A stretch of 52,786 bases of DNA from an uncultured Clostridia bacterium (GTDB lineage: Bacteria; Bacillota; Clostridia; Oscillospirales; Ruminococcaceae): the NCBI GenBank assembly GCA_947632025.1, contig CANRNN010000012.1, positions 1 through 52,786 of the forward strand, in the 5' to 3' direction. Each line of letters starts with the position of its first letter. Positions within the stretch are counted from its first letter, which is position 1. The notes beneath the pieces were generated by a model that made no database searches, had not been told where the DNA came from, and saw only the letters and a program-made list of their open reading frames with translations. Below, piece after piece: positions 15,892 to 28,735 of this stretch. The translations under genes and the position numbers were made by a program.

Positions 15892-16509
15892 TCACTTTTT
15901 GCATTTTTTGCAGGGTTTCTTGTCTGCAGGCTTTGTTGCTGCAGCGGGAGCAACGGCGGGCTTTGCTGCGGGAGCGGCTGCTTTTGCTGAAGATGCAGCA
16001 GGAGCAGGTGCCTTAACAGCGGCAGGCGCGGGCTTTACTTCTGCTTTGGGCTCAGGCTTTACTTCAGCCTTTGCCTTGGGAGCTTCTGCCTTTGCTTTTT
16101 CCTTAGCCGCGGGCTTTTCAGCCTTAGCGGCAGTCTTTGCAGCGGGTTTTTCGTCCTTGCTCTTGGCAGCTTTCTTTTTGGAGGGTACAAGACATTCAAG
16201 AGCTTTCAGCTTTGCGGGGTCGCCTTTTTTAATGCAGACCAGACCGTCCGACAAAGCCTTATCGAACGCAAGCTCACCCGAAAACATTTTATCTATGGTT
16301 TCTGCCGAAGCTTCCGCGTGACAACCGCAGTCATTATAGTGATACGGTTCTACTTCAATATTACCTCCGCGAACGACAACGTACAAGTCTTCGTTTGCCT
16401 CGCCGGTGAGCGAGAACGAAACTGCTACGAGATCCTCAAATTTTTTAGCCTTAGCGGCACTGCCCTTAAGATTGTTCCAAACCTTCTTCTGCAGTTCAAC
16501 GTTATTCAT
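15892..16509 (-). CDS. SCP2-like domain protein with Lys/Ala/Pro-rich tail
   Basis: A 205-residue protein. Residues 1-105 resemble a sterol-carrier-protein-2 type small-molecule-binding fold (DLYVVVRGGNIEVEPY, ASAETIDKMFSGELAFDKALSDGLVCIKKGD). The last ~95 residues are low complexity, built from Ala, Lys, Pro and Glu like a bacterial histone-H1-type tail, and end in PCKKCKK. A CGC triplet lies at the start of the predicted sterol-carrier helix region. The ATG at 16509 follows AGGA; the longer open frame upstream is in the untranslated leader. It has its own promoter. Function is unknown; the tail could bind nucleic acid or act as a wall spacer, but both are guesses. Confidence 0.6.
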   Translation of the reverse strand: MNNVELQKKVWNNLKGSAAKAKKFEDLVAVSFSLTGEANEDLYVVVRGGNIEVEPYHYNDCGCHAEASAETIDKMFSGELAFDKALSDGLVCIKKGDPAKLKALECLVPSKKKAAKSKDEKPAAKTAAKAEKPAAKEKAKAEAPKAKAEVKPEPKAEVKPAPAAVKAPAPAASSAKAAAPAAKPAVAPAAATKPADKKPCKKCKK

Positions 16510-16611
16510 AGTTTTATCCTCCGAAATAATCTGCTTTAACTTTATACGGGAGCCGCGTGGTGAGTGAAAACAAAATGACCCCCATCGAGAATACTTTCTC
16601 ACTCTTTTACC

Positions 16612-16640
16612 ATTATAACACAAAACATTTTATTTTTCAA
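16612..16640 (-). promoter_or_regulatory. Promoter of the SCP2-like gene
   Basis: Minus-strand TTGAAA (16635-16640) and TATAAT (16612-16617) with 17-base spacing, giving a leader of roughly 95 bases before the start at 16509. Confidence 0.75.
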
Positions 16641-16796
16641 TAGCAAAATCCAAAAAAAATGTACAAATTTTAAATTTTTTTCGCGGAAAATATAAAAAAT
16701 CCTACAAAAACGCGGCAGGTAAATATTCCGGCGGGATTATTCCGTTTTTTTCGGAGAAGATAATCCGGACGGAAAAATATTATGGGGAGTGATTTT

Positions 16797-17618
16797 ATGA
16801 GGAAAATTATTGCTGTTGCGGTGCTTTTTGTTTTTGCTTTATCCGCAGCGCCGAATGTTCCGGCGTTTGCGGCAAGCCCCGAAACGGGAAGCCTTGTCGT
16901 TATCGGCGATTCTATAGCTTCGGGCTACGGACTGCCCGATTACGCGGCGGGGGATAACTATTCCGCACCTCTTTCGTTCGCGAATATGGCAGGAGAATTT
17001 TATGAAGATTACAAAAATTTTGCAGTGGACGGGCGCACTTCGGCGGCGCTTCTGACGCAGTTTGACCACCCCGCGGGAGAGATGTGCGACGCGCTTGCGG
17101 AATGTTCGAGAGTGATAATTTCTATAGGCGGGAACGACTTCCTGAAGCCGATAATCTCCGCCGTGAAAACCGCTGCCGTCACGGATTCGGAACTTCTGGG
17201 GGAGATCCTTCGCGGCGAGCTTAAAGCGGAAACTCTCGGCGGGTATTCCAACCGCGTATTTCTTGCGGCTCTTGCAGCGGCAAAGAGCGTGGACGTTGAT
17301 AAAACCGTGTCCAATATCTCGCAGATAGTTGAGAAGATCCGCCGCGCAAATCCCAACGCGGAAATAACCCTGCTTACACTCTATGACCCGTTCGCGGGAA
17401 GCGTTCTGCTTAAAGCAGTATCCGAGGTCGCCGACGAAAAGCTCGCCGAGCTAAACGGCGGTATACGCAAGATCGCAGAGTCGGCTCCGGATAGGATAAA
17501 GACCGCCGATGTAAACGCTGCCTTCAAGGGTCACGAAAGCGAATTCACCAACATCGGACGGCTGGATATCCACCCGTCCGCCGCAGGACATTACGCTATT
17601 TTCAAGCTGTTATTTTAA
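16797..17618 (+). CDS. Secreted SGNH/GDSL hydrolase
   Basis: A 273-residue exported esterase-like enzyme. A signal peptide (KIIAVAVLFVFALSAAPNVPAFA) is followed by block I (VVIGDSIASGYGL), block III (ISIGGNDFL) and the C-terminal block V (DIHPSAAGHYAIF), giving Ser, Gly, Asn and Asp/His of the SGNH catalytic set. The length fits single-domain members. The ATG at 16797 follows GGGGAG at 16784; an earlier ATG at 16782 would overlap that site. It is a single-gene unit between its own leader and a terminator. It is not closely similar to the nearby SGNH lipoprotein. The substrate is unknown. Confidence 0.88.
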   Translation: MRKIIAVAVLFVFALSAAPNVPAFAASPETGSLVVIGDSIASGYGLPDYAAGDNYSAPLSFANMAGEFYEDYKNFAVDGRTSAALLTQFDHPAGEMCDALAECSRVIISIGGNDFLKPIISAVKTAAVTDSELLGEILRGELKAETLGGYSNRVFLAALAAAKSVDVDKTVSNISQIVEKIRRANPNAEITLLTLYDPFAGSVLLKAVSEVADEKLAELNGGIRKIAESAPDRIKTADVNAAFKGHESEFTNIGRLDIHPSAAGHYAIFKLLF

Positions 17619-17628
17619 TATGTGGAAC

Positions 17629-17657
17629 TTCCGCCGGAGCTTTTCGGCGGAATTTTC
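17629..17657 (+). terminator. Terminator between the SGNH hydrolase and the polyamine operon
   Basis: An 8-bp stem TTCCGCCG (17629-17636)/CGGCGGAA (17645-17652) with an 8-base loop, followed by TTTTCT. Confidence 0.75.
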
Positions 17658-17688
17658 TGTCGGAATCGAAAAAAATTTCGCAAACCCC

Positions 17689-17717
17689 TTGTAATTTTCT
17701 GCGGAATATGATATAAT
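17689..17717 (+). promoter_or_regulatory. Promoter of the polyamine operon
   Basis: TTGTAA (17689-17694) and TATAAT (17712-17717) are 17 bases apart, 59 bases before the speD start. No other clear promoter is seen before the next nine genes. Confidence 0.7.
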
Positions 17718-17776
17718 CTATTATAACTGTATAATGTGTTTTTTTAAATTAACTGCTGAATAAGGTGGTGTATAGG

Positions 17777-18592
17777 TTGGAAAAGAAACTTGCGCTTTAC
17801 GGGTTCAATAACCTCACAAAAACGTTGAGCTTCAATATTTACGATGTGTGCTACGCAAAAAGCGAGCGCGAACAGAAAGACTATATCGCGTATATAGATG
17901 AACAATATAATTCCGAGCGTCTTACGGGAATTTTGTGCGCCGTTACTGAAAAAATAGGCGCTACCGTGCTTAATATCTCAAAACAGGATTACGAACCTCA
18001 GGGCGCGTCCGTAAACGTCCTGTTCGCAGAGGGTACAGTGGATCCCGCACATATAGACGAAAGCTGCAACCGAGGTATGGGCTATTTTCAGAGCCTCGGC
18101 GCTGAGGGACAGACTATCTGTGCGCATCTGGACAAATCACATATCACGGTACATACTTTTCCTGAGTACCACCCCGATAAGGCTATCTCTACTTTCAGAG
18201 TGGATATAGACGTGGCGACGTGCGGAGAAATTTCCCCGCTTCAGACGCTGGATTTCCTTATCGGCTCATTTGATTCGGATATTATCATAATTGATTACAG
18301 AGTGCGCGGTTTCACGCGCGATGTATCGGGGAAAAAGTGCTTTATGGATGCGCCGATGACATCTATTCAGCAGTTCATAAATCCCGAAACTCTAACAAAA
18401 TACGACGCTATGGACGTGAACGTCTATCAGTCAAACATATTCCACACAAAAATGCTTATCAAAGAAATAGAGCTGCAAAACTATCTTTTTAACACCGACG
18501 TTTATGAAGTCCACCCGCAGGAGCGTCTGGAGATAACAAATTCCCTCCGAAGAGAAATGATCGAGATCTTCAGCGGAATGAATATCTATTGA
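17777..18592 (+). CDS. speD: S-adenosylmethionine decarboxylase, E. coli type
   Basis: Makes decarboxylated SAM, the aminopropyl donor for spermidine. The 271-residue protein is very like the E. coli class (264 residues): LYGFNNLTKTLSFNIYDVCYAK, YIAYIDEQYNSERLT, QDYEPQGASV, then LDKSHITVHTFPEYHP. The proenzyme cleaves itself before the Ser of LDKSH (residue 121 here) to give the pyruvoyl cofactor. DIDVATCGEISPL and VNVYQSNIFHTKML complete the match. The TTG at 17777 is chosen because AAGGTGG lies 8 bases upstream and the N-terminus then matches E. coli; GTG at 17765 would place that site inside the gene. First gene of the operon, 9 bases from speA. Confidence 0.95.
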   Translation: MEKKLALYGFNNLTKTLSFNIYDVCYAKSEREQKDYIAYIDEQYNSERLTGILCAVTEKIGATVLNISKQDYEPQGASVNVLFAEGTVDPAHIDESCNRGMGYFQSLGAEGQTICAHLDKSHITVHTFPEYHPDKAISTFRVDIDVATCGEISPLQTLDFLIGSFDSDIIIIDYRVRGFTRDVSGKKCFMDAPMTSIQQFINPETLTKYDAMDVNVYQSNIFHTKMLIKEIELQNYLFNTDVYEVHPQERLEITNSLRREMIEIFSGMNIY

Positions 18593-18601
18593 GGTGCGAA
18601 T

Positions 18602-20059
18602 GTGCAAGGCAAAATGAAGCTTGACCAGAACCGCGCCCCGCTTTACGAGGCAATGAACGAACACAGACTGAATCGGGTCGTGCCGTTCGATGTTCCCGGA
18701 CATAAGGGCGGACGGGGCAATAAGAAGCTTACGGATCTTCTCGGAGAAGCGTGTTTGAAAAATGACGTGAATTCCATGAAGCCGCTTGACAATCTCTGCC
18801 ACCCTGTTTCGGTGATAAAGGAAGCGCAGGAGATCGCAGCGGACGCTTTCGGCGCTGAAAATTCTTTCTTTATCGTGAACGGCGCGACAGGTGCGGTGCA
18901 GGCGATGGTAATGTCCGTGTGCAAGGCGGGCGATAAGATAATCCTGCCTCGGAACGTTCACAGAAGCGCCATAAACGCTCTTGTGGTGTGCGGGGCTGTT
19001 CCTGTTTATGTGAATCCGGGAGTTAATTCACAGCTCGGTATACCTCTGGGTATGACCCCCGAAGCAGTGGAACAGGCAATAATCGAAAATCCCGACGCGG
19101 AGGCGGTGCTAGTAAACAACCCGACATACTACGGCATTTGCTCCGATCTGAAAAAAATAACCGAGATAGCACACAGCCACGGGCTTAAGGTACTCTGCGA
19201 CGAAGCTCACGGAACGCATTTCTATTTCGGCGATGATATGCCCGTTTCGGGAATGGCTGTCGGCGCGGATATGGCGGCAGTTTCCGTCCACAAAACGGGC
19301 GGTTCGCTTACACAAAGCGCCATTTTGCTTATGGGAAAGCAGGTCAGCGCCGATTATGTACGACAGATAATAAACCTCACACAGACCACTTCCGCAAGCT
19401 ATCTGCTTATGGTGTCGCTTGATCTGGCACGGCAGAATCTGGCGCTTTCGGGGCGGGAATTCTATGAAAAGACCGTAAAATTCGCAGAGTATGCGCGGCG
19501 TGAAATAAACGCCATAGGCGGGTATTACGCTTTCGGCGAGGAGCTTTGCAACGGGAGCGATTTTTACGCATTTGACAAGACAAAGCTGTCTATCCATACC
19601 CGCGCTATGGGTCTGGCAGGGATAGAGGTGTACGATATTCTCCGCGACGAGTACGGGATTCAGATAGAATTCGGAGATATAGGGAATATTCTGGCGATAA
19701 TCACGGGCGGCGACAGGTCGCTTGAGATCGAGCGGCTCGTGTCGGCGCTGTATGAGATAAAGCGGCTCTACGGGCGCGACCCTGCGGGGCTTTACGATCA
19801 TGAATATATAAACCCTATAGTAGTCACAACGCCGCAGCAGGCGTTTTATGCCGAGCAGGAAACACTTCCGATAGAGCAGACAGCAGGCAGAGTATGCAGC
19901 GAGTTTGTTATGTGCTATCCTCCGGGGATACCTATCTTAGCACCGGGCGAGAGGATAACGCCCGACATTCTGGAATACATCACGTTCGCAAAGAAAAGGG
20001 GCTGCAATGTAACGGGCTGCCGCGATATGAGGGTAGAATATCTTCAGGTCGTGAAATGA
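18602..20059 (+). CDS. speA: Orn/Lys/Arg decarboxylase, arginine-decarboxylase type
   Basis: A PLP enzyme of the Bacillus SpeA type (485 residues, the usual length), which would make agmatine from arginine. The N-terminus has VPFDVPGHKGGRG, then FIVNGATGAVQAM, HRSAINALVVCGA, CDEAHGTHFYFG and the PLP lysine in SVHKTGGSLTQS; the C-terminus ends with YPPGIPILAPGE. Ornithine- and lysine-specific members share all these motifs, so the substrate is inferred from the link with speD and speE. The start GTG 18602 lies after GAGGTG, which overlaps the speD stop. No agmatinase follows, which matters for the pathway. Confidence 0.9.
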   Translation: MQGKMKLDQNRAPLYEAMNEHRLNRVVPFDVPGHKGGRGNKKLTDLLGEACLKNDVNSMKPLDNLCHPVSVIKEAQEIAADAFGAENSFFIVNGATGAVQAMVMSVCKAGDKIILPRNVHRSAINALVVCGAVPVYVNPGVNSQLGIPLGMTPEAVEQAIIENPDAEAVLVNNPTYYGICSDLKKITEIAHSHGLKVLCDEAHGTHFYFGDDMPVSGMAVGADMAAVSVHKTGGSLTQSAILLMGKQVSADYVRQIINLTQTTSASYLLMVSLDLARQNLALSGREFYEKTVKFAEYARREINAIGGYYAFGEELCNGSDFYAFDKTKLSIHTRAMGLAGIEVYDILRDEYGIQIEFGDIGNILAIITGGDRSLEIERLVSALYEIKRLYGRDPAGLYDHEYINPIVVTTPQQAFYAEQETLPIEQTAGRVCSEFVMCYPPGIPILAPGERITPDILEYITFAKKRGCNVTGCRDMRVEYLQVVK

Positions 20060-20083
20060 TCCCGCGCAATAAGGAGTTTTGCA

Positions 20084-20944
20084 ATGGAGCTTTGGTTCAC
20101 GGAAAATCACACGGAAGGCGTGCGCTTTTCGATAAAAATAAAAAAACATCTCGTTTCAGAACAGAGCGAGTTCCAGAAAATAGATATCCTCGATTCCGAG
20201 GAGTTCGGGAGGATACTTGTTCTTGACGGGTGCCTTATGCTTACGGAAAAGGACGAGTATATCTACCACGAGATGATAACTCATGTGCCTATGTCCGTCA
20301 ATCCCGAAATAAAAAAGGTCCTCGTTATCGGCGCGGGCGACGGCGGCACGGTGCGCGAGCTTTGCCGATTCAAAAGCGTTGAACATATTGATATGGTGGA
20401 AATTGACAAGCGCGTGGTGGAGCTGTGCCGCGAGTATCTACCGAAAACGGCGTGTTCTCTCGGCGATCCGAGAGTTCACATCTATTACGAGGACGGTCTT
20501 AAATTCGTCCGCGGCGCGGAAAACGAATACGATTTGATAATCGTCGATTCTACCGACCCGTTCGGACCGGGAGAGGGTCTGTTTACGCGTGAATTTTACG
20601 GAAACTGCTATAAGGCGCTGAATGATACGGGCATTCTTGTAAATCAGCACGAAAGCACGTTCTACGACGAATATGCGCAGATAATGAAACGCGCCCACGC
20701 AAGGATAAAAAGCTTTTTCCCGATAGCGCTCGTCTATCAGGCGCATATCCCGACTTATCCGTCGGGTCAGTGGCTGTTCGGCTTCGCGTCTAAGAAATTC
20801 CACCCCGTAGACGACCAGAACGCCGAGTGGTGGCTTTCTCAGAATCTGAAAACGGGATACTACAACCGCTTTGTTCACAGCGGGTGTTTCGCTCTGCCGA
20901 ATAACGTCCGCGACGTTTTAAGGGAAACAAAGCCCGCGACATAA
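20084..20944 (+). CDS. speE: Spermidine synthase
   Basis: Transfers the aminopropyl group from decarboxylated SAM to putrescine (or a related amine such as agmatine). The 286-residue sequence has the N-terminal MELWFTENHTEGVRFSI, QSEFQKIDILDSEEFGRIL, the SAM-binding GAGDGGTVRE, VEIDKRVVE and the catalytic DSTDPFGPGEGLFTREFY; length is as usual. AAGGAG precedes the ATG. It follows speA by 24 bases. Whether the acceptor is putrescine or agmatine cannot be read from the motifs, and no agmatinase gene is present here to release putrescine. Confidence 0.94.
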   Translation: MELWFTENHTEGVRFSIKIKKHLVSEQSEFQKIDILDSEEFGRILVLDGCLMLTEKDEYIYHEMITHVPMSVNPEIKKVLVIGAGDGGTVRELCRFKSVEHIDMVEIDKRVVELCREYLPKTACSLGDPRVHIYYEDGLKFVRGAENEYDLIIVDSTDPFGPGEGLFTREFYGNCYKALNDTGILVNQHESTFYDEYAQIMKRAHARIKSFFPIALVYQAHIPTYPSGQWLFGFASKKFHPVDDQNAEWWLSQNLKTGYYNRFVHSGCFALPNNVRDVLRETKPAT

Positions 20945-20986
20945 CGCGGCTTTAAGGTACAGTAAATAATGCCAAAGGAGTTTATT

Positions 20987-21364
20987 ATGCTTATTAACTT
21001 TGAAGATCTTCCCAAGATGTCTGTGGAAAATTTCCGCGGCGGTGAGAAAACAACTCACGAGCGGATATACGCGGATATGCTCAACCGACTGTCGAAGATA
21101 ACACTTGAACCGGGTGCGACAATAGGACTGCATAAGCATGTTACAAGCTCGGAGTTCATTTTTGTGCTTTGCGGAAAGGGCAGGGTCATCTGCGACGGAA
21201 AATCGGAAATACTGACGCAGGGGCTGGGTTCTTACTGCCCGATGGGAAGCGAGCATACCATAATCAACGACGGCGAGGACGAGCTTATCATATATTCCGT
21301 AACGCCCGAACACACGGGTCATAACATCACTGCCGATGATTACGAAAGCGAAATAAGCTTCTGA
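20987..21364 (+). CDS. Small cupin-domain protein
   Basis: A 125-residue single-domain cupin. Metal ligands are visible in GLHKHVTSSEFIFVL (H-x-H and E) and in GSEHTIIN (His), with the glycine turns GKGRV and PMGSEH between. The start is ATG 20987 because AAAGGAG lies 7 bases before it; an ATG at 20969 would place that site within the gene. Lying between speE and the membrane proteins, it is part of the polyamine operon, but cupins have many roles (isomerase, lyase, sensor), and none can be assigned here. Confidence 0.8.
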   Translation: MLINFEDLPKMSVENFRGGEKTTHERIYADMLNRLSKITLEPGATIGLHKHVTSSEFIFVLCGKGRVICDGKSEILTQGLGSYCPMGSEHTIINDGEDELIIYSVTPEHTGHNITADDYESEISF

Positions 21365-21381
21365 TTACATAAGGAGAATTG

Positions 21382-22029
21382 ATGTCAAGACCTTTACGCG
21401 GCAGACTGGCAAGCTATGTCATTATAATAGTTTTCGCGCTGGCGTTTTGCATATCGTGTATAGCGGGGGGAATTTCCGATCTTTCAGCAAAGTCCGCTCC
21501 GAAAGAACTTGCTTTCAAGGGCGATGTTATCGAATACGACGCGTATTATGCGCAGGAAGTGTGGGTAATTTCGCACAGGCTGTTCGGGTTTATCCCGACG
21601 CGGAAAGAGTATTTTTACCTTACGGCAAGCGAGGACGGCGCAGAGCAGTATCTTGTTTTGGCAAGCAAGCGTTGGCTCGAGGACAATTTCGACTCGGAAG
21701 GGCTTGCACGCGGCGACGATGTGCATATAACCGCTCTTTTGCGGAGAACTGCTCCCAAAAACGGGCTTTACACGAGCGAAATAAACGACTGGCTTTCGGA
21801 CATCGACGTTTCGATAAACGAGAACTTGTACGCCGACAGCAATTACAAAACGGTCGGCGTGCTTAAAATTGTCGTGGCGGTGCTGACGCTTGTTGTTGCC
21901 GCGCTTATAATAACGATTTTGAGATTTCACGCGCTCGGAATGATTGGCGGCGCGGGCGGCAAAGCCCTTATAGCGGGGTCGTATGCGGCGGTGCTGGCGT
22001 TGGTGGTTATTATTGTGGGATTTCTCTGA
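21382..22029 (+). CDS. Membrane protein A of a three-gene family in the polyamine operon
   Basis: A 215-residue protein: one membrane helix near the N-terminus (about 10-32), an extracytoplasmic domain of ~120 residues, and two helices at the C-terminus (VLKIVVAVLTLVVAALIITIL and a last stretch ending in LALVVIIVGFL). The middle domain has FYLTASEDGAEQYLVLASKRW and NFDSEG, which recur in the next two genes. AAGGAG precedes the ATG. The stop overlaps the next start by one base (TGATG). The family is not recognised. A sensor or transporter-accessory role in polyamine handling is only suggested by position. Confidence 0.7.
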   Translation: MSRPLRGRLASYVIIIVFALAFCISCIAGGISDLSAKSAPKELAFKGDVIEYDAYYAQEVWVISHRLFGFIPTRKEYFYLTASEDGAEQYLVLASKRWLEDNFDSEGLARGDDVHITALLRRTAPKNGLYTSEINDWLSDIDVSINENLYADSNYKTVGVLKIVVAVLTLVVAALIITILRFHALGMIGGAGGKALIAGSYAAVLALVVIIVGFL

Positions 22030-22654
22030 TGAATAAGATAAAAATTCCGTTTTTTGCGGTAGTTATCACGGTGTTTGTCATAATTCTGACAACTACCGGG
22101 ATAATTCGGCTTTGCAAACAGCCTGCTTCTGCAAATAAAGAGGGAGATGTCGGCGAATATAAGATAAGTTATGCCACAGAGGTGCTTCAGGTCGACAATA
22201 TCGTCGACAACGTCCCGTTTTTAAGCGAACATTTTTTATGGTCTGCAACGAGGCGGGAGAGCCTTATCCGTTCGTTTTGCGGGCAGAAATGTCGTGGTAT
22301 AACAAGAATTTCGACAAGAGCGGAAAGGCTAAAGAGCCTGTAACGGCGCGGTTTCTTGTAAGAAAACCGTCCTCGGATAAAGCAAAGGTTCTGTCGCAGA
22401 TAAACGCGGAAATTGTCGGAGAGGAAATCCCGTGGTGGCACGAGGGGACTGTGATAAATTCGCGGTTTTACGCGGACAAGACTTACCGCACGTATATTTT
22501 CGCAGAATTCGGGATTTGCATAGCTGCTGCGGCGGCTTATGTGCTTTTTAAATTGTCGGTAAGGGTCAAAGCAAAGGCTGCAATGCTCGCGGGAGGGTTT
22601 GCGTCAACAGTGGCAGCGGTCTTGCTGTTCATTTATATAATGGTTATGACTTAG
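22029..22654 (+). pseudogene. Membrane protein B, interrupted by a one-base frameshift
   Basis: The start (ATG 22029, MNKIKIPFFAVVITVFVIILTTTGII) reads in one frame to SEHFLW, and the rest (FFMVCNEAGEPYPFVLRAEM through NFDKSG to the C-terminal helices, ending at 22654) reads in another. The switch falls at a run of six Ts at 22232-22237; adding one T would restore a ~208-residue protein with the same plan as genes A and C, including aligned FMVCNEAG/FYLTASED and NFDKSG/NFDSEG segments. It is either a recent pseudogene, a sequencing error in a homopolymer, or a slippage site. It overlaps gene A by one base. Confidence 0.7.
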
Positions 22655-22728
22655 AAATAATAGATTTTCAGGTGGTCAAGGCTATGGGCATAAGCAGAAC
22701 ATTGATAACAGGTGCGGCGTATGAATAA
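22653..22728 (+). repeat. Vestigial copy of the start of the downstream dehydrogenase gene, with a 14-codon ORF
   Basis: About 65 bases here match the region around the start of the dehydrogenase gene (23392-23453): an AT-rich leader, GGTGGTCAAGGCTATG against GGGGGTCAAAGCTATG, then AGCAGAACATTGATAACAGG against AGCAGAGCATTGATAATAGG. The copy carries a short ORF from ATG 22684 to TAA 22728 (MGISRTLITGAAYE), whose end overlaps the ATG of membrane protein C at 22721. Together with 23392-23453 it forms direct repeats flanking gene C. Confidence 0.75.
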
Positions 22729-23335
22729 AAAATTCCCCATTAACACGTTGATAGCATCGGCAATTACGTTGTATCAGCTTGTTGTCGGTATAATCGAGCT
22801 TAATAAGATCCCAAGCGATGATTATAGCAAGGGTTCTGCTGTGGAAGTTACGGTTTTCGGAGGATTCAGGGCAGCCGTATTCGAGCATGGTTTCTTAGGC
22901 GTAAAATTATGGACGGACTATTATTATCTTATTTTAGATGAAAGCGGCGTCTGTCAGATGCTTATCCGTGCGGACAGCTCACTAGGAAACAAATTTGACA
23001 GCGAAGGTATAGCTTCAAGCATAACGACCGTAAAGGGAATTGTAAAAACCGTTCCCAAACAGATAAGCGATATTATAAGGCAGCAAAACTATTCGTCCTA
23101 TTACGGGGTGAGTGAAACGCTTTATATCAATTTGCTTTATAAGCGCGTCGCGTGGTGCAGGATAGGCGTTTTTGCAAGTTTTTTCACTGCTGCGGGATTG
23201 ATATTTTTAAGGTATCATCTTCTTGTTTCGGAAAAAATTATCGTAAGAGGCACTGTGGCAACAATATTATCAGTGGCTATTTTTATGTTTATCAATTTAG
23301 CTGCAGGGCTTATGATATATGTGATGTTGGTATGA
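22721..23335 (+). CDS. Membrane protein C of the three-gene family
   Basis: A 204-residue protein built like membrane protein A: N-terminal helix (about 8-25), extracytoplasmic domain with YYYLILDESGVCQMLIRADSSLG and NKFDSEG, then two C-terminal helices (IGVFASFFTAAGLIFL and a segment ending in LAAGLMIYVML). The ATG at 22721 overlaps the stop of a 14-codon ORF that has the better ribosome binding site (GGTGG), so it may be translated by coupling; GTG 22712 is an alternative. The direct repeats on both sides suggest it arrived as a unit by duplication. No known family is recognised. Confidence 0.65.
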   Translation: MNKKFPINTLIASAITLYQLVVGIIELNKIPSDDYSKGSAVEVTVFGGFRAAVFEHGFLGVKLWTDYYYLILDESGVCQMLIRADSSLGNKFDSEGIASSITTVKGIVKTVPKQISDIIRQQNYSSYYGVSETLYINLLYKRVAWCRIGVFASFFTAAGLIFLRYHLLVSEKIIVRGTVATILSVAIFMFINLAAGLMIYVMLV

Positions 23336-23391
23336 ATCATTCAGAATGTACTGTCAATTATTGAATGTTATCGGGTATTTCCCGAAAGAAT

Positions 23392-23453
23392 ATAAATAAT
23401 TTTTAGGGGGTCAAAGCTATGAGCAGAGCATTGATAATAGGTGCGGGCGGCGT
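23392..23453 (+). repeat. Parent copy of the direct repeat, spanning the dehydrogenase start
   Basis: The leader, ribosome binding site and first ~11 codons of the dehydrogenase gene. It matches 22653-22720 with a few substitutions and two short gaps; the two copies are about 735 bases apart and bracket membrane protein C. Confidence 0.75.
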
Positions 23454-24621
23454 TGCGTCGGTAGTTGTCGCGAAATGCTGCCAGAACAGCGAGGTTTTTT
23501 CGGAAATTATGATTGCGTCGCGAACAAAAGCAAAATGCGACGCGTTAAAGGAGAAATGGCAGGACAAGACCAAAACCGTTATCTCAACGGCTGCGGTGGA
23601 CGCGGATAACGTTCCGCAGCTTGTAGGGCTTATAAACGAGTACAAGCCCGATATTGTAATGAATATCGCCCTGCCGTATCAGGATCTGCACATTATGGAC
23701 GCTTGTCTTGAATGTAAGGTGGATTATCTTGACACGGCAAATTACGAACCGGAAGATACCGCAAAATTCGAGTATTCGTGGCAGTGGGCGTATAAAGAGC
23801 GTTTCGAGAAAGCGGGAATAACGGCTGTTCTCGGCTGCGGTTTCGATCCCGGAGTTACGGGAGTTTTCTCCGCTTACGCTATGAAGCACGAATTTGACGA
23901 GATAAACTATATTGACATTCTCGACTGCAACGGCGGCGACCACGGCTATCCGTTCGCGACAAATTTCAACCCCGAAATAAATATCCGCGAGGTTTCCGCG
24001 AAAGGCAGCTATATCGAAAACGGCAAGTGGGTCGAAACCGAGCCTATGGAGATAAAGCGCGTGTACAATTTTAAGGGAGTAGGCGAAAAGGATATGTATC
24101 TGCTTCACCACGAGGAATTGGAAAGCCTTGCGCTGAACATCAAGGGCATAAAGCGCATTCGTTTCTTTATGACGTTCGGGCAGAGCTATCTTAACCACCT
24201 CCAGTGCCTTAAAGATGTGGGAATGACAAGCATTGAGCCGATTATGTTTGAGGGTAAGGAGATAGTACCCTTGCAGTTTCTGAAAGCAGTTTTGCCCGAC
24301 CCCGCGTCTTTAGGTCCGAGGACTGTCGGCAAAACGAACATCGGCTGTATTTTCCGCGGCAAGAAGGACGGCAAGGACAAGAATTACTACCTCTACAATA
24401 TCTGCGACCATCAAGAGTGCTACAGGGAAGTCGGCTCTCAGGCGATCTCGTATACAACTGGCGTTCCCGCAATGATAGGCGGCATGATGGTTCTCACGGG
24501 CAAGTGGAAGAAAGCCGGCGTGTGGAATGTCGAGCAATTCGACCCCGATCCGTTTATGGACGCGCTGAATAAGTGGGGTCTGCCTTGGGAAGAGGACAGA
24601 AACCCCGTTCTGGTCGACTGA
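23419..24621 (+). CDS. Carboxynorspermidine/carboxyspermidine dehydrogenase (saccharopine dehydrogenase family)
   Basis: Condenses aspartate semialdehyde with a diamine and reduces the imine to carboxy(nor)spermidine, the first step of the decarboxylated-SAM-independent route. The 400-residue protein starts with a Rossmann motif MSRALIIGAGGVASVV, then SRTKAKCDAL, the region DTANYEPED and GCGFDPGVTGVFSAYAM, and ends in GGMMVLTGKW. Length and motifs match the family, and the decarboxylase partner lies two genes downstream. GGGGG just upstream is the ribosome binding site. The amine acceptor could be putrescine, diaminopropane or agmatine; this cannot be told from sequence. Confidence 0.92.
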   Translation: MSRALIIGAGGVASVVVAKCCQNSEVFSEIMIASRTKAKCDALKEKWQDKTKTVISTAAVDADNVPQLVGLINEYKPDIVMNIALPYQDLHIMDACLECKVDYLDTANYEPEDTAKFEYSWQWAYKERFEKAGITAVLGCGFDPGVTGVFSAYAMKHEFDEINYIDILDCNGGDHGYPFATNFNPEINIREVSAKGSYIENGKWVETEPMEIKRVYNFKGVGEKDMYLLHHEELESLALNIKGIKRIRFFMTFGQSYLNHLQCLKDVGMTSIEPIMFEGKEIVPLQFLKAVLPDPASLGPRTVGKTNIGCIFRGKKDGKDKNYYLYNICDHQECYREVGSQAISYTTGVPAMIGGMMVLTGKWKKAGVWNVEQFDPDPFMDALNKWGLPWEEDRNPVLVD

Positions 24622-24632
24622 AAGGATTATCA

Positions 24633-24956
24633 ATGGAAGAGCTTATCGTAGGCATTGTTTGCCTAACATTAGCGGCAGCAAGCGTGATTTTGGGCATAAT
24701 GCAGCTTTGCGAAAAGGGAAAACCGTTCAACAATTCATATCTCTTCGCAAGCGAACAAGAGCGTAAAACTATGGATTTAAAGCCGCTTTTCAGACAGTCG
24801 GGTGCGGTTTTTCTGCTTATCGGTGTTATATTTATCATAAATGCGGCAGGTTGTCTTTTGAAAAACAGCAATATTTTCTATCTGCTGATACCCGTAATAG
24901 CCGGAACGCTGATTTACGCAGTAGTTTCAAGCGTTGCGATGAATAAAAAGAGTTAG
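24633..24956 (+). CDS. Small three-helix membrane protein (DUF3784-like)
   Basis: A 107-residue protein with hydrophobic helices at about 4-24, 57-76 and 80-102, and a cytosolic-type segment FASEQERKTMDLKPLFRQSG between the first two. That charged segment followed by two helices is reminiscent of DUF3784 proteins, which are not characterised. The ATG at 24633 follows AAAGGA at the end of the dehydrogenase gene; the open frame from 24573 overlaps that gene. It is 13 bases from the decarboxylase. Function unknown. Confidence 0.6.
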   Translation: MEELIVGIVCLTLAAASVILGIMQLCEKGKPFNNSYLFASEQERKTMDLKPLFRQSGAVFLLIGVIFIINAAGCLLKNSNIFYLLIPVIAGTLIYAVVSSVAMNKKS

Positions 24957-24969
24957 GTGAAAGGCTCAA

Positions 24970-26118
24970 ATGAGTTGGATTGACGAAGTCGAAACTCCGT
25001 GTTACGTCATTGACGAGCAAAAACTGAAAAAAAATCTGGCACTGCTGAAATATGTCCGTGAAAAGGCGGGCTGTAAAATTCTGCTTGCGCAAAAAGCATT
25101 TTCGTGCTTTCGCGAGTATCCGATCATAGCGGAATATCTGGACGGCTGCACCGCGAGCGGCTTGTTTGAAGCAAGGCTTGGATATGAAGAAATGGCAAAG
25201 CCGTTTGGGCGGGAAAATCACGTTTTTTCGCCTGCTTATTCCGAAAAAGATTTTGATGAAATACTGTCATACTGTGACCATATCGTATTTAATTCTCCCG
25301 CGCAGTGGGCAAAATACCGCGACAGGGTGCGTGCGTCAAAGCGTTTTATACAGGCGGGAATACGCGTGAATCCCGAATACAGCGAGATAGAAACCGATAT
25401 TTACAATCCTTGTTTTCACGGCTCGCGAATGGGAACGACTATCACGAATTTTATTAAGCAGCAGGAATTGACCGACGGAATAGACGGCTTGCATTTTCAC
25501 ACACTGTGCGAACAGAATTCGGATGTTCTTGTAAGGACGCTGCCGCATTTTGAAGAAAAATTCGGCTTTATGTTCGATAAAATAAAGTGGGTGAATTTCG
25601 GCGGAGGTCATCATATCACACGAGCGGATTATGATGTTGAACTGCTGATAAAAACGATAAAGGATTTCCGCGAAAAATATAAGCTTGAGGTGTATCTTGA
25701 GCCGGGAGAGGCAGTCGCGCTTAACGCGGGTTATCTTGTGACAAGCGTTCTTGACGTGACCGAAAACGGGGTCAAGATAGCAATAACAGACGCTTCGGCA
25801 GCGTGCCATATGCCCGATGTTCTCGAAATGCCGTACAGACCGAACATAATCGGCGCGGGAGAACCGAACGAAAAGCCGTTTACTTATCGCCTAGGCGGGA
25901 ACACCTGTCTTGCAGGGGACGTTATCGGCGATTATTCCTTTGACAGCACACTTAAAGAGGGTGACAGGCTCGTTTTCGAGGATATGGCAATTTATTCTAT
26001 GTGCAAGAACAATACCTTTAACGGTATACCGTTGCCTTCGATTTATTTGCTTGAAAACGGAAAAGTGAAGTTGCTGAAAAAATTCGGGTATGAGGATTTT
26101 CGCGGCAGACTGGGCTGA
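24970..26118 (+). CDS. nspC: Carboxynorspermidine/carboxyspermidine decarboxylase
   Basis: A fold-type III PLP decarboxylase (alanine racemase-like barrel) that releases (nor)spermidine from its carboxy form. The 382-residue protein has TPCYVIDEQKLKKNL, the PLP lysine in LLAQKAFSCF, GLHFHTLCEQNSDV, WVNFGGGHHITR, LEPGEAVAL and GNTCLAGDVIGDY (the Cys of the C-terminal active site). Length fits the family. It ends the ten-gene polyamine locus, since a separate repeat-containing leader follows. With the dehydrogenase upstream it forms a complete two-step route from aspartate semialdehyde. Confidence 0.95.
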   Translation: MSWIDEVETPCYVIDEQKLKKNLALLKYVREKAGCKILLAQKAFSCFREYPIIAEYLDGCTASGLFEARLGYEEMAKPFGRENHVFSPAYSEKDFDEILSYCDHIVFNSPAQWAKYRDRVRASKRFIQAGIRVNPEYSEIETDIYNPCFHGSRMGTTITNFIKQQELTDGIDGLHFHTLCEQNSDVLVRTLPHFEEKFGFMFDKIKWVNFGGGHHITRADYDVELLIKTIKDFREKYKLEVYLEPGEAVALNAGYLVTSVLDVTENGVKIAITDASAACHMPDVLEMPYRPNIIGAGEPNEKPFTYRLGGNTCLAGDVIGDYSFDSTLKEGDRLVFEDMAIYSMCKNNTFNGIPLPSIYLLENGKVKLLKKFGYEDFRGRLG

Positions 26119-26123
26119 TTTGA

Positions 26124-26163
26124 GTGGAAAACTGTTGAAAACGTGTTGAAAACTCGGTTGAAA
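26124..26163 (+). promoter_or_regulatory. Four phased GTKGAAAAC-like boxes before the SUKH-like gene
   Basis: GTGGAAAAC (26124) and GTTGAAAAC-type copies at 26134, 26145 and 26157 are spaced 10, 11 and 12 bases apart, on one face of the helix. A TATAAT follows at 26172-26177, so the array is placed as an operator. The unit resembles the GTGGGGAAAA boxes ahead of mraZ. Confidence 0.5.
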
Positions 26164-26200
26164 TTTTCGCATATAATAATAAGGAAATGAGGCGGGATTT

Positions 26201-26851
26201 TTGGCGGTCAGGTACAATATGGACGCGTTTGAGGCGCTGAAAATATTTTACGGCGGAGCAGAGGACGGCTATGCGCCCGAAGATTTCGAGATAAACGAGC
26301 GCGAGCGCGGAATTTTTATACCCGAAATGCTTAAGGATTTTCTCGGAAAGTATGGGTATATGTCGGTCAATCGCTTGTCGGATTCGGTAAGACTGCTGCA
26401 TCCGAACATTATGTCCGAGCGTGTGTTCCGTTATGGCGAGGACAGAGCGCTGAACCTCACGATAATCGGCAGGATAGGCGAATTCAAGCTTGCTGTCGCC
26501 GAAAGTACCGCTGCCGACCCCGGAATCTTCCTGCTTCAGATAACTCCCGAACAGGCGCAGATACTCCCGTCGGACGATACGCTGACCGAGATCTTCAAGG
26601 TGATGCTTTGCAGTGCTCTGTTGAACGAGCCGGGAGCGCAGACAGTCGAGGATCCTGTGCTTGCGGTAAGGCTTTTGCGGGAAAATTTCGTCGATCTTGA
26701 CAGGATCTCCTGCAATCCGTCGCTTCGGCGGGAGTATTCCGTCAACTTTTCGGAAGAACTCAGAACATTTGTTGCGGCGGAATTCGTGGAAGGAGAGCTT
26801 GCGAGATTCTTTTTTGCAAGCTCGGAACGGTTCGCCCCGTTGGACAGATGA
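26201..26851 (+). CDS. Possible SMI1/KNR4 (SUKH)-like protein
   Basis: A 216-residue soluble protein with no signal or membrane helix. Residues ~30-110 (ERGIFIPEMLKDFLGKYGYMSVNR, then ITPEQAQ further on) resemble the SMI1/KNR4 fold, where a Pro-x-x-hydrophobic helix is followed by a Gly turn. SUKH proteins are often immunity proteins or interaction modules, but no toxin is seen nearby. The TTG at 26201 has GAGGCGG 5 bases upstream; ATG 26219 is an alternative. It stands alone between the polyamine operon and the dcw cluster, followed by a terminator. The assignment is weak. Confidence 0.45.
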   Translation: MAVRYNMDAFEALKIFYGGAEDGYAPEDFEINERERGIFIPEMLKDFLGKYGYMSVNRLSDSVRLLHPNIMSERVFRYGEDRALNLTIIGRIGEFKLAVAESTAADPGIFLLQITPEQAQILPSDDTLTEIFKVMLCSALLNEPGAQTVEDPVLAVRLLRENFVDLDRISCNPSLRREYSVNFSEELRTFVAAEFVEGELARFFFASSERFAPLDR

Positions 26852-26892
26852 GAATTATTATCGAATAATTCAGTATTTGTGAATAAAAATTA

Positions 26893-26925
26893 TCCCCCGT
26901 TCTTCGGGGGATTTCTGTTTTTGTA
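26893..26925 (+). terminator. Terminator before the dcw cluster
   Basis: A 7-bp stem TCCCCCG (26893-26899)/CGGGGGA (26905-26911) with a 5-base loop and a T-rich tail (TTTCTGTTTTTG). Confidence 0.8.
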
Positions 26926-27145
26926 GGGCGTGTGAACAGTTGTAGGGAATTACTACGGATATTATTTAAAAGCCCAAGATATGGATAAAGCGTTTTGGGA
27001 ATTTTCTACATCTGGGGATTCTGTTGTAATTTTGCACTAAAAATCGGCTTTCTTAAGGCAAAATAATATGAAACTTTTGTGAAAATTGCACAAAAATATG
27101 AACAAAAATTTATGCCTCTTTTTTGAATAAAATTTCTAAAATCCC
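26926..27145. other. AT-rich intergenic stretch with no gene seen
   Basis: Between the terminator and the mraZ promoter no ORF with a plausible start and no RNA gene was found. Short GTGAAAATTGCAC-type partial palindromes occur near 27080. Confidence 0.5.
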
Positions 27146-27174
27146 TTGAAAAAAATAAATAATTGGGTTATAAT
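27146..27174 (+). promoter_or_regulatory. Promoter of the dcw cluster
   Basis: TTGAAA (27146-27151) and TATAAT (27169-27174) with a 17-base spacer. Transcription would begin near 27181, giving a leader of about 197 bases before mraZ. Confidence 0.8.
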
Positions 27175-27180
27175 ATGATT

Positions 27181-27280
27181 GTGGGGAAAAGTGGTGAAAT
27201 AATCCACCGAAATGGTGAAAAGTTAATTAAAAATAAAAAATCACCAAAAATCATCTGAAATCACCAAAAATACCCAAAAA
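27181..27280 (+). promoter_or_regulatory. Ten-base phased MraZ-box-like array
   Basis: Units start every 10 bases: GTGGGGAAAA (27181), GTGGTGAAAT (27191), AATCCACCGA (27201), AATGGTGAAA (27211), then inverted types TCACCAAAAA (27241), TCATCTGAAA (27251), TCACCAAAAA (27261) and TACCCAAAAA (27271). MraZ is known to bind short TGG-containing direct repeats before its own gene, so this is read as the autoregulatory site. A hairpin GCCGTC/GACGGC (27310-27328) with TGAGGAG in its loop follows. Confidence 0.65.
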
Positions 27281-27377
27281 GAGGAAAATATATAAACATC
27301 TACGAATCAGCCGTCTGAGGAGGACGGCAAAACTTCACTTTTCACGGGGAAGGAGCTTTCGGCAAGGGGGGACAGAA

Positions 27378-27797
27378 ATGTACGGCGAATACGAGCATAC
27401 GGTCGACGCTAAGGGAAGAATGAATTTCCCGGCGAAGCTGCGCGACGAATTCGGCGAACATTTCTTCATAGCCAAAAGTTTCAATGAAAAGTGTCTGACG
27501 GTATATACTCGCGAAGCGTGGGAAAAGCTGCGCGAGGACTTAAAGGGGAAGCCGTCAAAGGTGGCGCTGCCTATTGAGCGTTTTCTGTTCGGAAGCGCAT
27601 GTGAGGCGGAGCCGGACAAGCAGGGGAGAATAGCGATAGCTCCCGCCCTGCGGGCTTACGCGGGAATAACCGCGGAGGTGGTAGTGGTCGGAATGAACGA
27701 CCGCGCCGAGATCTGGGATAAGGACGCTTGGGTAGAATACAACACATCGCTCACGCCCGAAAATATCGCTGAAATGGCAGGGGAAATCGGACTTTAA
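27378..27797 (+). CDS. mraZ: Transcriptional regulator MraZ
   Basis: A 139-residue protein with two AbrB-like halves: MYGEYEHTVDAKGRMNFPAKLRDEFG at the start and EAEPDKQGRIAIAPALRAYAG in the middle, each with the D-x-K/Q-G-R motif. MraZ forms a ring that binds repeats in front of its own operon. It is the first gene of the cluster and its stop overlaps the rsmH start (TAATG). A Shine-Dalgarno AAGGGGGGACAG lies just before the ATG. Regulation by the box array upstream is expected. Confidence 0.96.
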   Translation: MYGEYEHTVDAKGRMNFPAKLRDEFGEHFFIAKSFNEKCLTVYTREAWEKLREDLKGKPSKVALPIERFLFGSACEAEPDKQGRIAIAPALRAYAGITAEVVVVGMNDRAEIWDKDAWVEYNTSLTPENIAEMAGEIGL

Positions 27798-28735
27798 TGG
27801 AATTTCGTCACACGACCGTACTTCTCAGAGAAACAGTGGACGGTGCGTTTTCAGACCCTAACGGGGTCTACGCGGATCTTACCACAGGCGGAGGAGGTCA
27901 CAGCGAGGAACTGGCACGTCGGCTGTCCGGGGGGAGGCTGATATGCTTCGACAGGGACAGGGAGGCTCTGGAGGCGGCGGGAAAACGTCTTTCGGGCTTG
28001 AATGTCACACTTATCCGACGGAATTTCAATCGGCTTCGGGAAACACTGGACGAGCTTGGAATAGACAAGCTCGACGGTATTGTGGCAGACTTGGGGGTTT
28101 CGTCACATCAGCTCGATGACGCTTCAAGAGGTTTTTCGTTCCATAACGACGCTCCGCTAGATATGAGAATGAGCGGAGAGGGTATGAGCGCCCGTGACGT
28201 CGTGAACGAATATTCCGCCGAAGAACTTCAAAGAATACTTTACGAGTACGGCGAGGAAAAATTCGCTCCGAAAATCGCGATGGGGATCGTGAAAGCAAGG
28301 GAAAATTCGCCTGTTGAAACGACGGGGCAGCTTGCAGAAATTATAAAAAGCAGCGTTCCGGCGGCTTACAGGCGGGAAAAAAATCCCTGCCGCAAAAGCT
28401 TTCAGGCAATAAGAATTGAAGTGAACGGCGAGCTTGACGCGCTTGAAACAGCGCTTTCAGACGGCTTCGGCTGCCTGAAGATCGGCGGGAAAATGGCAGT
28501 GATAACGTTCCACTCGCTGGAGGACAGGATTGTCAAAAACCGTTTCAAGGAATTTTGTACGGGCTGTATATGTCCGCCCGAATTTCCCGTGTGTGTCTGC
28601 GGAAGAAAACCGTGCGGCGAACTGCTGACAAAAAAACCAATAGTACCGACCGAATCGGAAATTTCGGAAAATCCCAGAAGCAGAAGTGCAAAGCTGCGCG
28701 TTATCAGAAAGATCGCGGAAAAACCGGAAAATTAA
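27797..28735 (+). CDS. rsmH: 16S rRNA (cytosine-1402-N4)-methyltransferase RsmH
   Basis: Methylates N4 of C1402 in 16S rRNA with SAM. The 312-residue protein shows HTTVLLRETVDGAF, the SAM loop DLTTGGGGHSEEL, DGIVADLGVSSHQLDDASRGFSF, PLDMRMS, KSFQAIRIEVNGEL and the end FHSLEDRIVKNRFKE. Length is normal for the family. A Cys-rich stretch CTGCICPPEFPVCVCGRKP near the C-terminus is the usual one in Firmicutes. One-base overlap with mraZ. Confidence 0.97.
   Translation: MEFRHTTVLLRETVDGAFSDPNGVYADLTTGGGGHSEELARRLSGGRLICFDRDREALEAAGKRLSGLNVTLIRRNFNRLRETLDELGIDKLDGIVADLGVSSHQLDDASRGFSFHNDAPLDMRMSGEGMSARDVVNEYSAEELQRILYEYGEEKFAPKIAMGIVKARENSPVETTGQLAEIIKSSVPAAYRREKNPCRKSFQAIRIEVNGELDALETALSDGFGCLKIGGKMAVITFHSLEDRIVKNRFKEFCTGCICPPEFPVCVCGRKPCGELLTKKPIVPTESEISENPRSRSAKLRVIRKIAEKPEN

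Follow-up and report, generated by a model that had tools for sequence, protein, structure and literature searches.

The closest described counterpart of the locus considered here is the polyamine operon of C. leptum. According to a figure legend of Lee et al. 2023 (PMC10413350), it comprises genes for S-adenosylmethionine (SAM) decarboxylase, arginine decarboxylase, spermidine synthase, agmatine ureohydrolase, carboxyspermidine dehydrogenase (CASDH) and carboxyspermidine decarboxylase (CASDC), a gene set which those authors regard as suggesting two paths to spermidine. The C. leptum genes were expressed in E. coli by Li et al. 2025 (PMC11999265), who report that the CASDH/CASDC pair gave about 150-fold more N1-aminopropylagmatine than the pair from A. 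tumefaciens and made no spermine, and that SpeE (the aminopropyltransferase) yielded spermine together with some spermidine and hardly any thermospermine. Their proposal is a hybrid pathway in which agmatine, N1-aminopropylagmatine and spermidine are shared intermediates, an idea repeated in a 2026 review (PMC12979288); the main text of PMC11999265 nowhere uses the words “operon”, “gene cluster”, “deiminase” or “carbamoyl”. The co-occurrence of both routes in one operon is therefore already described (PMC10413350, PMC11999265). The present locus lies on contig CANRNN010000012.1 (the window; 52,786 nucleotides) of an uncultured Clostridia bacterium of the family Ruminococcaceae, and has the genes speD, speA, speE, CASDH and nspC in one operon. 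In its genome and its relatives, the ureohydrolase SpeB and the enzyme pair AguA/AguB show a reciprocal pattern of occurrence around this same operon, and in 50 operon-bearing genomes the reciprocal swap is complete.

As in the C. leptum CASDH operon (PMC10413350, legend), the five enzyme genes share one operon; unlike C. leptum, the window genome has no ureohydrolase gene in the operon and an aguA-aguB pair elsewhere, and five unrelated genes are interspersed among those for the enzymes. Compared with the C. leptum type of hybrid pathway, homologues of CASDH and CASDC occur with SpeD and SpeE in the same operon, and the putative arginine decarboxylase has, by fold and family, the expected aspartate-aminotransferase type; the ureohydrolase that would free spermidine from N1-aminopropylagmatine is missing, and AguA/AguB are present instead. 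In Synechocystis, homologues of CASDH and NspC are said (Xi et al. 2023) to act on agmatine in a carboxyaminopropylagmatine (CAPA) pathway, and such homologues are present in the window. The CAPA pathway ends with an aminopropylagmatine ureohydrolase (APAUH, PMC11998418), whereas no ureohydrolase match was obtained in the window genome, which thus lacks, as far as searched, the terminal enzyme of the strict CAPA pathway. The hybrid pathway of Deferribacter desulfuricans likewise combines CASDH/CASDC with SpeD/SpeE in a single genome and has a spermine-forming SpeE, but its arginine decarboxylase has the alanine-racemase fold rather than the aspartate-aminotransferase fold predicted for that of the window (PMC11999265). 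The route described for Bacteroides thetaiotaomicron (agmatine deiminase, carbamoyl amidohydrolase, CASDH and CASDC; PMC10135574) is similar in that AguA and AguB occur in the window genome alongside CASDH and CASDC; however, spermidine is the sole polyamine reported there, and SpeD/SpeE do not appear in the legend of the pathway figure. Finally, the operon of the Streptococcus pneumoniae CASDH (PDB 4rl6) includes CASDC, spermidine synthase and agmatine deiminase (PMC10413350, PMC7990898), an arrangement shared with three loci discussed below (L172, L173 and L177). Lee et al. also predict a ureohydrolase activity there (PMC10413350); in the pneumococcus, as presented in these two sources, no speD is annotated, and the agu genes of the window genome, by contrast, lie outside the operon.

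The five enzyme genes of the window, as predicted from open reading frames (ORFs) and family matches, are:

17765..18592, + strand: speD, SAM decarboxylase of the E. coli type (class 1a), 275 aa (ORF, TIGR03331)
18602..20059, + strand: speA, Orn/Lys/Arg decarboxylase of the aspartate-aminotransferase fold, 485 aa (ORF, PF01276, PF03711)
20084..20944, + strand: speE, aminopropyltransferase, 286 aa (ORF, PRK00811 and TIGR00417)
23419..24621, + strand: CASDH/CAPADH, carboxyspermidine (or carboxyaminopropylagmatine) dehydrogenase, 400 aa (PF16653/PF03435; PDB 4rl6, 4ina, 8deb)
24970..26118, + strand: nspC (CASDC/CAPADC), carboxy(nor)spermidine decarboxylase, 382 aa (TIGR01047)

The genome of the window (2.36 Mb in 31 contigs, scored as 100% complete and 1.78% contaminated) gave no match to the ureohydrolase family PF00491 in a search that was positive in 9 of 14 control genomes. 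On another contig (C10), AguA (PF04371, 414 bits) adjoins AguB (TIGR03381, 419 bits). A single window could not reveal either the loss of speB from the operon or the presence of aguA/aguB elsewhere. The comparison was extended by a CASDH scan of genome contigs, in which the best 80 of at least 589 loci were taken as the nearest relatives (mostly gut and rumen Clostridia, judged by record titles). Layout counts rest on the 68 of these loci in which the sequence upstream of CASDH extends for 3 kb or more. In this set, speE was found in 58 loci, the order speA-speE-CASDH in 56, and speD-speA-speE-CASDH-nspC, in this order and on one strand, in 45, which bears on a question raised in the initial annotation of the window, namely how widely this exact order is conserved. 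In 42 of the 68 loci, speE and CASDH are separated by a speB gene of the same strand; the window plus 16 of the 68 have speE but no speB, and neither gene was found by query in the remaining 10.

For 50 of the 58 speE-bearing loci (16 of 16 speB-less and 34 of 42 speB-bearing), the entire genome, for which a completeness score was not available, was searched for ureohydrolase and AguA; L039, L047, L049, L051, L065, L083 and L085 were left out to hold the set to 50, and L046 because its speA and speB matches were in pieces. A ureohydrolase was found genome-wide in none of the 16 speB-less and in all 34 speB-bearing genomes, and AguA at more than 400 bits in all 16 of the former and none of the 34 latter (one 38-bit fragment, in G083). 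An E. coli-type speD stands at 15 of the 16 speB-less and 31 of the 34 speB-bearing loci, some of whose contigs end early.

Two further samples, which overlap with the first and with each other (close kin among the 50 genomes recur in the genus sample; G048, G049 and G054 are in both of the samples that follow), were searched as well. The sample of relatives comprised 61 genomes (the window's own and 60 others), of which 37 belong to the window's genus and 24 lie outside it. Within the genus, AguA was found at 268 bits or more without a ureohydrolase match in 30 of 37 genomes, and in none were both found at full length; AguB exceeded 400 bits in 29, CASDH was present in 34 and SpeE in 33. Outside the genus, CASDH was present in 10 of 24 genomes, all 10 of which have a ureohydrolase and none a full-length AguA (one 83-bit match, G049); G038, a genome without CASDH, has AguA at 281 bits. 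The class sample, not chosen by neighbourhood, comprised 196 genomes, 59 of them with CASDH including the window's own. Among the 58 others, 46 have ureohydrolase only, 8 AguA only, 2 both and 2 neither; among the 46 that also have SpeE, the corresponding numbers are 39, 5, 1 and 1 (Fisher p = 2.6e-5, uncorrected for kinship). Matches of 22 bits for ureohydrolase (G263) and of 83 and 36 bits for AguA (G049 and G135, respectively) were scored as absent in this tally.

Twelve of the 58 class genomes have CASDH without a SpeE match (G130, G132, G148, G160, G164, G168, G196, G209, G224, G227, G249 and G280), and of these, G164, G209 and G249 have AguA without a ureohydrolase. In the same sample, sixteen CASDH copies (L165-L180) carry an insert near residue 114, at the same place as an insert in PDB 4rl6; speB stands alongside twelve of them, but not in G208, G133, G263 and G298.

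Taken together, these results suggest that the window operon probably encodes the known hybrid pathway that draws on both aspartate semialdehyde and decarboxylated SAM, with AguA/AguB in place of SpeB. In this pathway, SpeA would convert arginine to agmatine, and CASDH and NspC would add the first aminopropyl group from aspartate semialdehyde to give spermidine, via N1-aminopropylagmatine if the acceptor is agmatine or via carboxyspermidine if it is putrescine. Decarboxylated SAM would be the source of the aminopropyl groups added by SpeD and SpeE, chiefly the second, to give spermine. The guanidino end would be removed in two steps, by AguA (to the carbamoyl form) and then AguB (to the free amine), compared with one step by SpeB in the relatives.

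Several observations weigh against this reading. The reactions assigned to the window would all follow by analogy with the enzymes of C. leptum, none of them from the window's own genus. Within that genus, a ureohydrolase without AguA occurs in 2 of 37 genomes (G008 and G027), and neither enzyme at full length in 5 (G003, G017, G019, G028 and G029, among which G003 has a 23-bit end piece of AguA and G028 a 26-bit ureohydrolase match); in the class sample, G224 and G298 have both enzymes and G130 and G208 neither. An E. coli-type speD was found to accompany CASDH at 19 of the 58 class loci, and the search for speD was confined to these loci, so that many class genomes are not shown to have the SAM arm. 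In support of the reading, the agu genes are joined to the operon itself in three genomes of one genus (G133, G263 and G298, loci L173, L172 and L177, respectively), where speA-speE-CASDH-nspC-aguA-aguB lie on one strand; yet the interval between CASDH and nspC is 2.6 kb in L173 and 3.8 kb in L172, no speD match was found in the aguAB-bearing clusters of the three loci, and G298 has a ureohydrolase elsewhere in its genome, which weakens its witness. The exchange is also clustered on trees. On a tree built from the SpeA, SpeE and CASDH sequences of 51 genomes, 4 parsimony changes were required, at least 3 of them on supported branches, and all 3 supported independent pairs ran in the expected direction. 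On a CASDH tree of 109 genomes, the SpeE-bearing rows (97) gave 9 changes of ureohydrolase and 8 of AguA on the best tree, but of 4 supported independent pairs 2 ran as expected and 2 showed no change; with all rows, about 3 of 6 supported pairs opposed AguA to ureohydrolase and the rest showed no change. The sign test was not significant on the CASDH tree and was unable to reach significance on either tree (the tree tests exclude L088, the contig of which is too short for a judgement). With so few supported pairs, repeated exchange of speB and aguA is likely rather than proved; formal proof that loss of speB and gain of aguA are correlated was not reached on either tree.

The two genomes of the genus with a ureohydrolase and no AguA (G008 and G027) carry a divergent speE-speB-CASDH set, with CASDH 74-75% identical over residues 114-400. 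This set may reflect an earlier state of the genus, or else the misbinning of contigs (G027 is scored at 9% contamination).

The initial annotation had read the operon as two independent spermidine routes. In the published model, agmatine, N1-aminopropylagmatine and spermidine are common to both (PMC11999265), and the routes are thus not independent. Its remark that the two are generally treated as alternatives is fair for the older literature, and is now answered in outline by the hybrid pathway. Among the explanations it offered, two different products would fit the C. leptum results, with spermidine from CASDH/CASDC and spermine from SpeE (PMC11999265), whereas no evidence was found for a switch in SAM use. 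Homospermidine or norspermidine as the second product found no support in what was seen, diaminobutyrate enzymes, homospermidine synthase and other ornithine decarboxylases lying outside the searches. The arms could also be redundant, both making spermidine from the same acceptor, one as a back-up tuned to the supply of SAM or aspartate. In favour of redundancy, some spermidine is formed by SpeE of C. leptum, and N1-aminopropylagmatine is a product common to both arms of the published model (PMC11999265); in addition, the operon appears from its layout to be one transcription unit. However, the C. leptum CASDH/CASDC pair made no spermine (PMC11999265), which implies that the two arms differ in product, and both arms are kept together in 45 of the 68 loci. 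Redundancy is therefore considered quite unlikely.

Both halves of the operon appear intact, and the possibility, also raised in the initial annotation, that one of them is catalytically dead is not borne out by their sequences. Against six close relatives, the ratio of nonsynonymous to synonymous differences per site (pN/pS) was 0.09-0.13 for speD, 0.15-0.17 for speA, 0.12-0.16 for speE, 0.05-0.12 for CASDH and 0.18-0.28 for nspC, with synonymous sites at or near saturation in many pairs; such ratios point to purifying selection on all five genes. The His-Glu-Glu motif, placed in the CASDH active site by Lee et al. (PMC10413350), was found in all 139 copies examined, a second motif, NFNPE[IL]N (around Glu188 of Lee et al.), in 129 and a third in 138. 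With regard to family identity, SpeD scored 404 bits against TIGR03331 (cut-off 256) and 43 bits, below the cut-off, against TIGR03330 (B. subtilis type); SpeE scored 388 bits against PRK00811 (cut-off 260) and 320 bits against TIGR00417 (cut-off 250); and NspC scored 512 bits against TIGR01047 (cut-off 409). In the profile searches, SpeA matched PF01276 at 250 bits, and also PF03711, and CASDH reached 413 bits against NF043000 (the NCBI equivalog “carboxynorspermidine synthase”), far below its cut-off of 800. By profile, then, the assignments of SpeD, SpeE and NspC are strong, lying above curated cut-offs, and those of SpeA and CASDH are clear at the domain level. SpeA is taken to be an arginine decarboxylase, its probable substrate being suggested by the company of aguA/aguB or speB. 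That SpeD might be a disguised ornithine/arginine decarboxylase was ruled out, as it fits the E. coli type; the known shifts of SpeD to such activities derive from class 1b (PMC10407285).

By analogy with C. leptum, the SpeE of the window would make spermine. It has the Asp, Gly and Glu residues that Li et al. 2024 (PMC11107197) name as a pattern and that fit spermine synthases. A search pattern of our own for these residues was matched in 96 of 102 readable SpeE copies (3 more were too short or unread); five of the six non-matches differ in neighbouring letters alone, and L090 has Asp for Glu. In the SpeE alignment, the same three residues are shared by PDB 1inl, presumably the enzyme of T. 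maritima. The T. maritima enzyme is listed without spermine activity (PMC11107197), so the residues do not decide, and the motif was rejected as proof of spermine synthesis. Two SpeE copies occur in G044, G172, G239 and G273, one beside CASDH and one elsewhere; this could be a split of spermidine and spermine synthases.

According to Li et al. (PMC11999265), the choice of acceptor is set by CASDH. None of the other enzymes of the operon is as conserved: in 51 genomes, 233 of 400 CASDH columns are invariant, and CASDH of the window's genus is on average 85% identical to that of the speB type, compared with 62-71% for the other four (41-50 genomes usable). No CASDH column separates the speB-less from the speB type in the 51 genomes, and a residue signature of an acceptor switch was accordingly not found among their columns. 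Since CASDH sets the acceptor, the acceptor would appear to be unchanged by the swap, and AguA/AguB would do the job of SpeB, whatever step that is. SpeB in the relatives could act before or after the extension, so the swap does not tell which step this is.

Thus, AguA/AguB could act first, converting agmatine via N-carbamoylputrescine to putrescine, which the CASDH of speB-less lineages would then use; spermidine would be made by the classic carboxyspermidine route and spermine by SpeD/SpeE. The chances of this order of events seem to us evenly balanced. It is the known chemistry of AguA/AguB (PMC12283126), and C. leptum CASDH accepts putrescine, with a kcat of 0.37 per s, a Km of 5.0 mM and a kcat/Km of 74 per M per s (PMC10413350). 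For the B. fragilis enzyme with putrescine, the same source gives a Km of 4.2 mM and a kcat/Km of 96 per M per s. Its kinetics cover putrescine and diaminopropane, and neither the abstract nor Table 1 lists agmatine as a substrate. By these values putrescine is a weak substrate of CASDH, which argues against AguA/AguB acting first, as does the absence of any CASDH column that changes with the swap although CASDH sets the acceptor. The AguA of the window genome was compared with PDB 6nib, which we take to be AIH of M. truncatula, using a numbering offset of 7 that is our own and was checked on Cys366. Four residues are named near the amine end of agmatine in AIH (PMC6447857): Asp89, Trp91 and Trp125 are identical in AguA, and Asp220 is Glu, as in agmatine deiminase 2jer, so that AguA resembles an ordinary bacterial agmatine deiminase, in keeping with action on agmatine itself. 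On the other hand, AguB, and perhaps AguA, could act last: CASDH would extend agmatine or N-carbamoylputrescine, and AguB would free spermidine from N-carbamoylspermidine. This order we consider possible, though rather less likely than not. It would fit the large yield of N1-aminopropylagmatine from C. leptum CASDH/CASDC (PMC11999265) and the closeness of CASDH between the window's genus and the speB-type loci. It would also fit B. thetaiotaomicron, where mutation of the AguB homologue (ncpah) nearly abolished spermidine and led to the accumulation of two unidentified amines rather than N-carbamoylputrescine (PMC10135574), as might be expected of N-carbamoylspermidine and a carboxy precursor. 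In AIH, agmatine sits with its terminal amine at the channel entrance, where there might be room for an extension, but a loop closes the channel during catalysis (PMC6447857). Moreover, carbamoylspermidine is not reported in the literature searched, the two unidentified amines come from an organism, B. thetaiotaomicron, of another phylum, and B. fragilis is said by Lee et al. to have a ureohydrolase (PMC10413350), which would put the Bacteroides parallel in doubt. The wider proposal, that in speB-less Clostridia, and perhaps Bacteroides, AguB (with or without AguA) acts at the end of the pathway, spermidine arising from N-carbamoylspermidine and putrescine never being a free intermediate, is put forward as a somewhat doubtful one.

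The remaining features of the operon and its borders are:

17629..17652, + strand: terminator-like hairpin (10 bp stem, T tail) closing the upstream gene
17689..17717, + strand: promoter-like site TTGTAA-17-TATAAT, sigma-70-like, by consensus match (10/12) only
20969..21364, + strand: cupin-domain protein, 131 aa (PF07883)
21379..22029, + strand: membrane protein A, 216 aa, no family, paralogue of membrane proteins B and C
22029..22654, + strand: membrane protein B, broken reading frame (overlapping ORFs 22029-22343 and 22238-22654)
22712..23335, + strand: membrane protein C, 207 aa, no family, paralogue of membrane protein A
24627..24956, + strand: DUF3784 small membrane protein, 109 aa (PF12650)
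26892..26912, + strand: strong bidirectional terminator-like hairpin, 3′ of gene 26201-26851, one gene past nspC

The five enzyme genes, described in the initial annotation as lying on one strand with short gaps, are indeed full ORFs on the + strand, and the intergenic gaps from speD to nspC are -1 to 83 bp. Ten genes are present in the region, as had been counted, but one of them, the membrane gene at 22029-22654, is split between two overlapping frames. The single visible promoter corresponds to the putative sigma-70-like site at 17689-17717, which is plausible only, as a scan of 16500-28500 gave 28 sites compared with 15.3 (sd 4.1) in shuffles. A regulatory RNA 5′ of speD was sought and not found, Rfam giving a sub-threshold rdlD match on the downstream terminator alone.

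The five interspersed genes (the cupin, the three membrane proteins and DUF3784) matched no polyamine enzyme family in profile searches. Among the 80 loci, the cupin, the first membrane protein and DUF3784 matched the closest kin of the window alone, and membrane proteins B and C had no match. The three tandem membrane proteins at 21379-23335, for which no Pfam or NCBIfam family was matched as tested, resemble paralogues (26-32% identity between the first and the other two). The nspC end of the operon is followed, after about 1.3 kb, by mraZ-rsmH, the start of a cell-division cluster (window 24970-28735), and this neighbourhood recurs in five of the closest relatives (L011, L012, L015, L016 and L017).

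The operon itself is known; what is new is the reciprocal pattern of ureohydrolase and AguA/AguB around the same hybrid operon. This pattern makes both the step of guanidino removal in gut Clostridia and an N-carbamoylspermidine intermediate testable. If AguB does act last, spermidine would be reached by a route not described so far, which would also account for the two unidentified amines in the ncpah mutant of B. thetaiotaomicron. If N-carbamoylspermidine is indeed an intermediate, annotations according to which “AguA/AguB means putrescine” would be wrong for some gut bacteria, and estimates of which gut bacteria make putrescine, spermidine and spermine would change.

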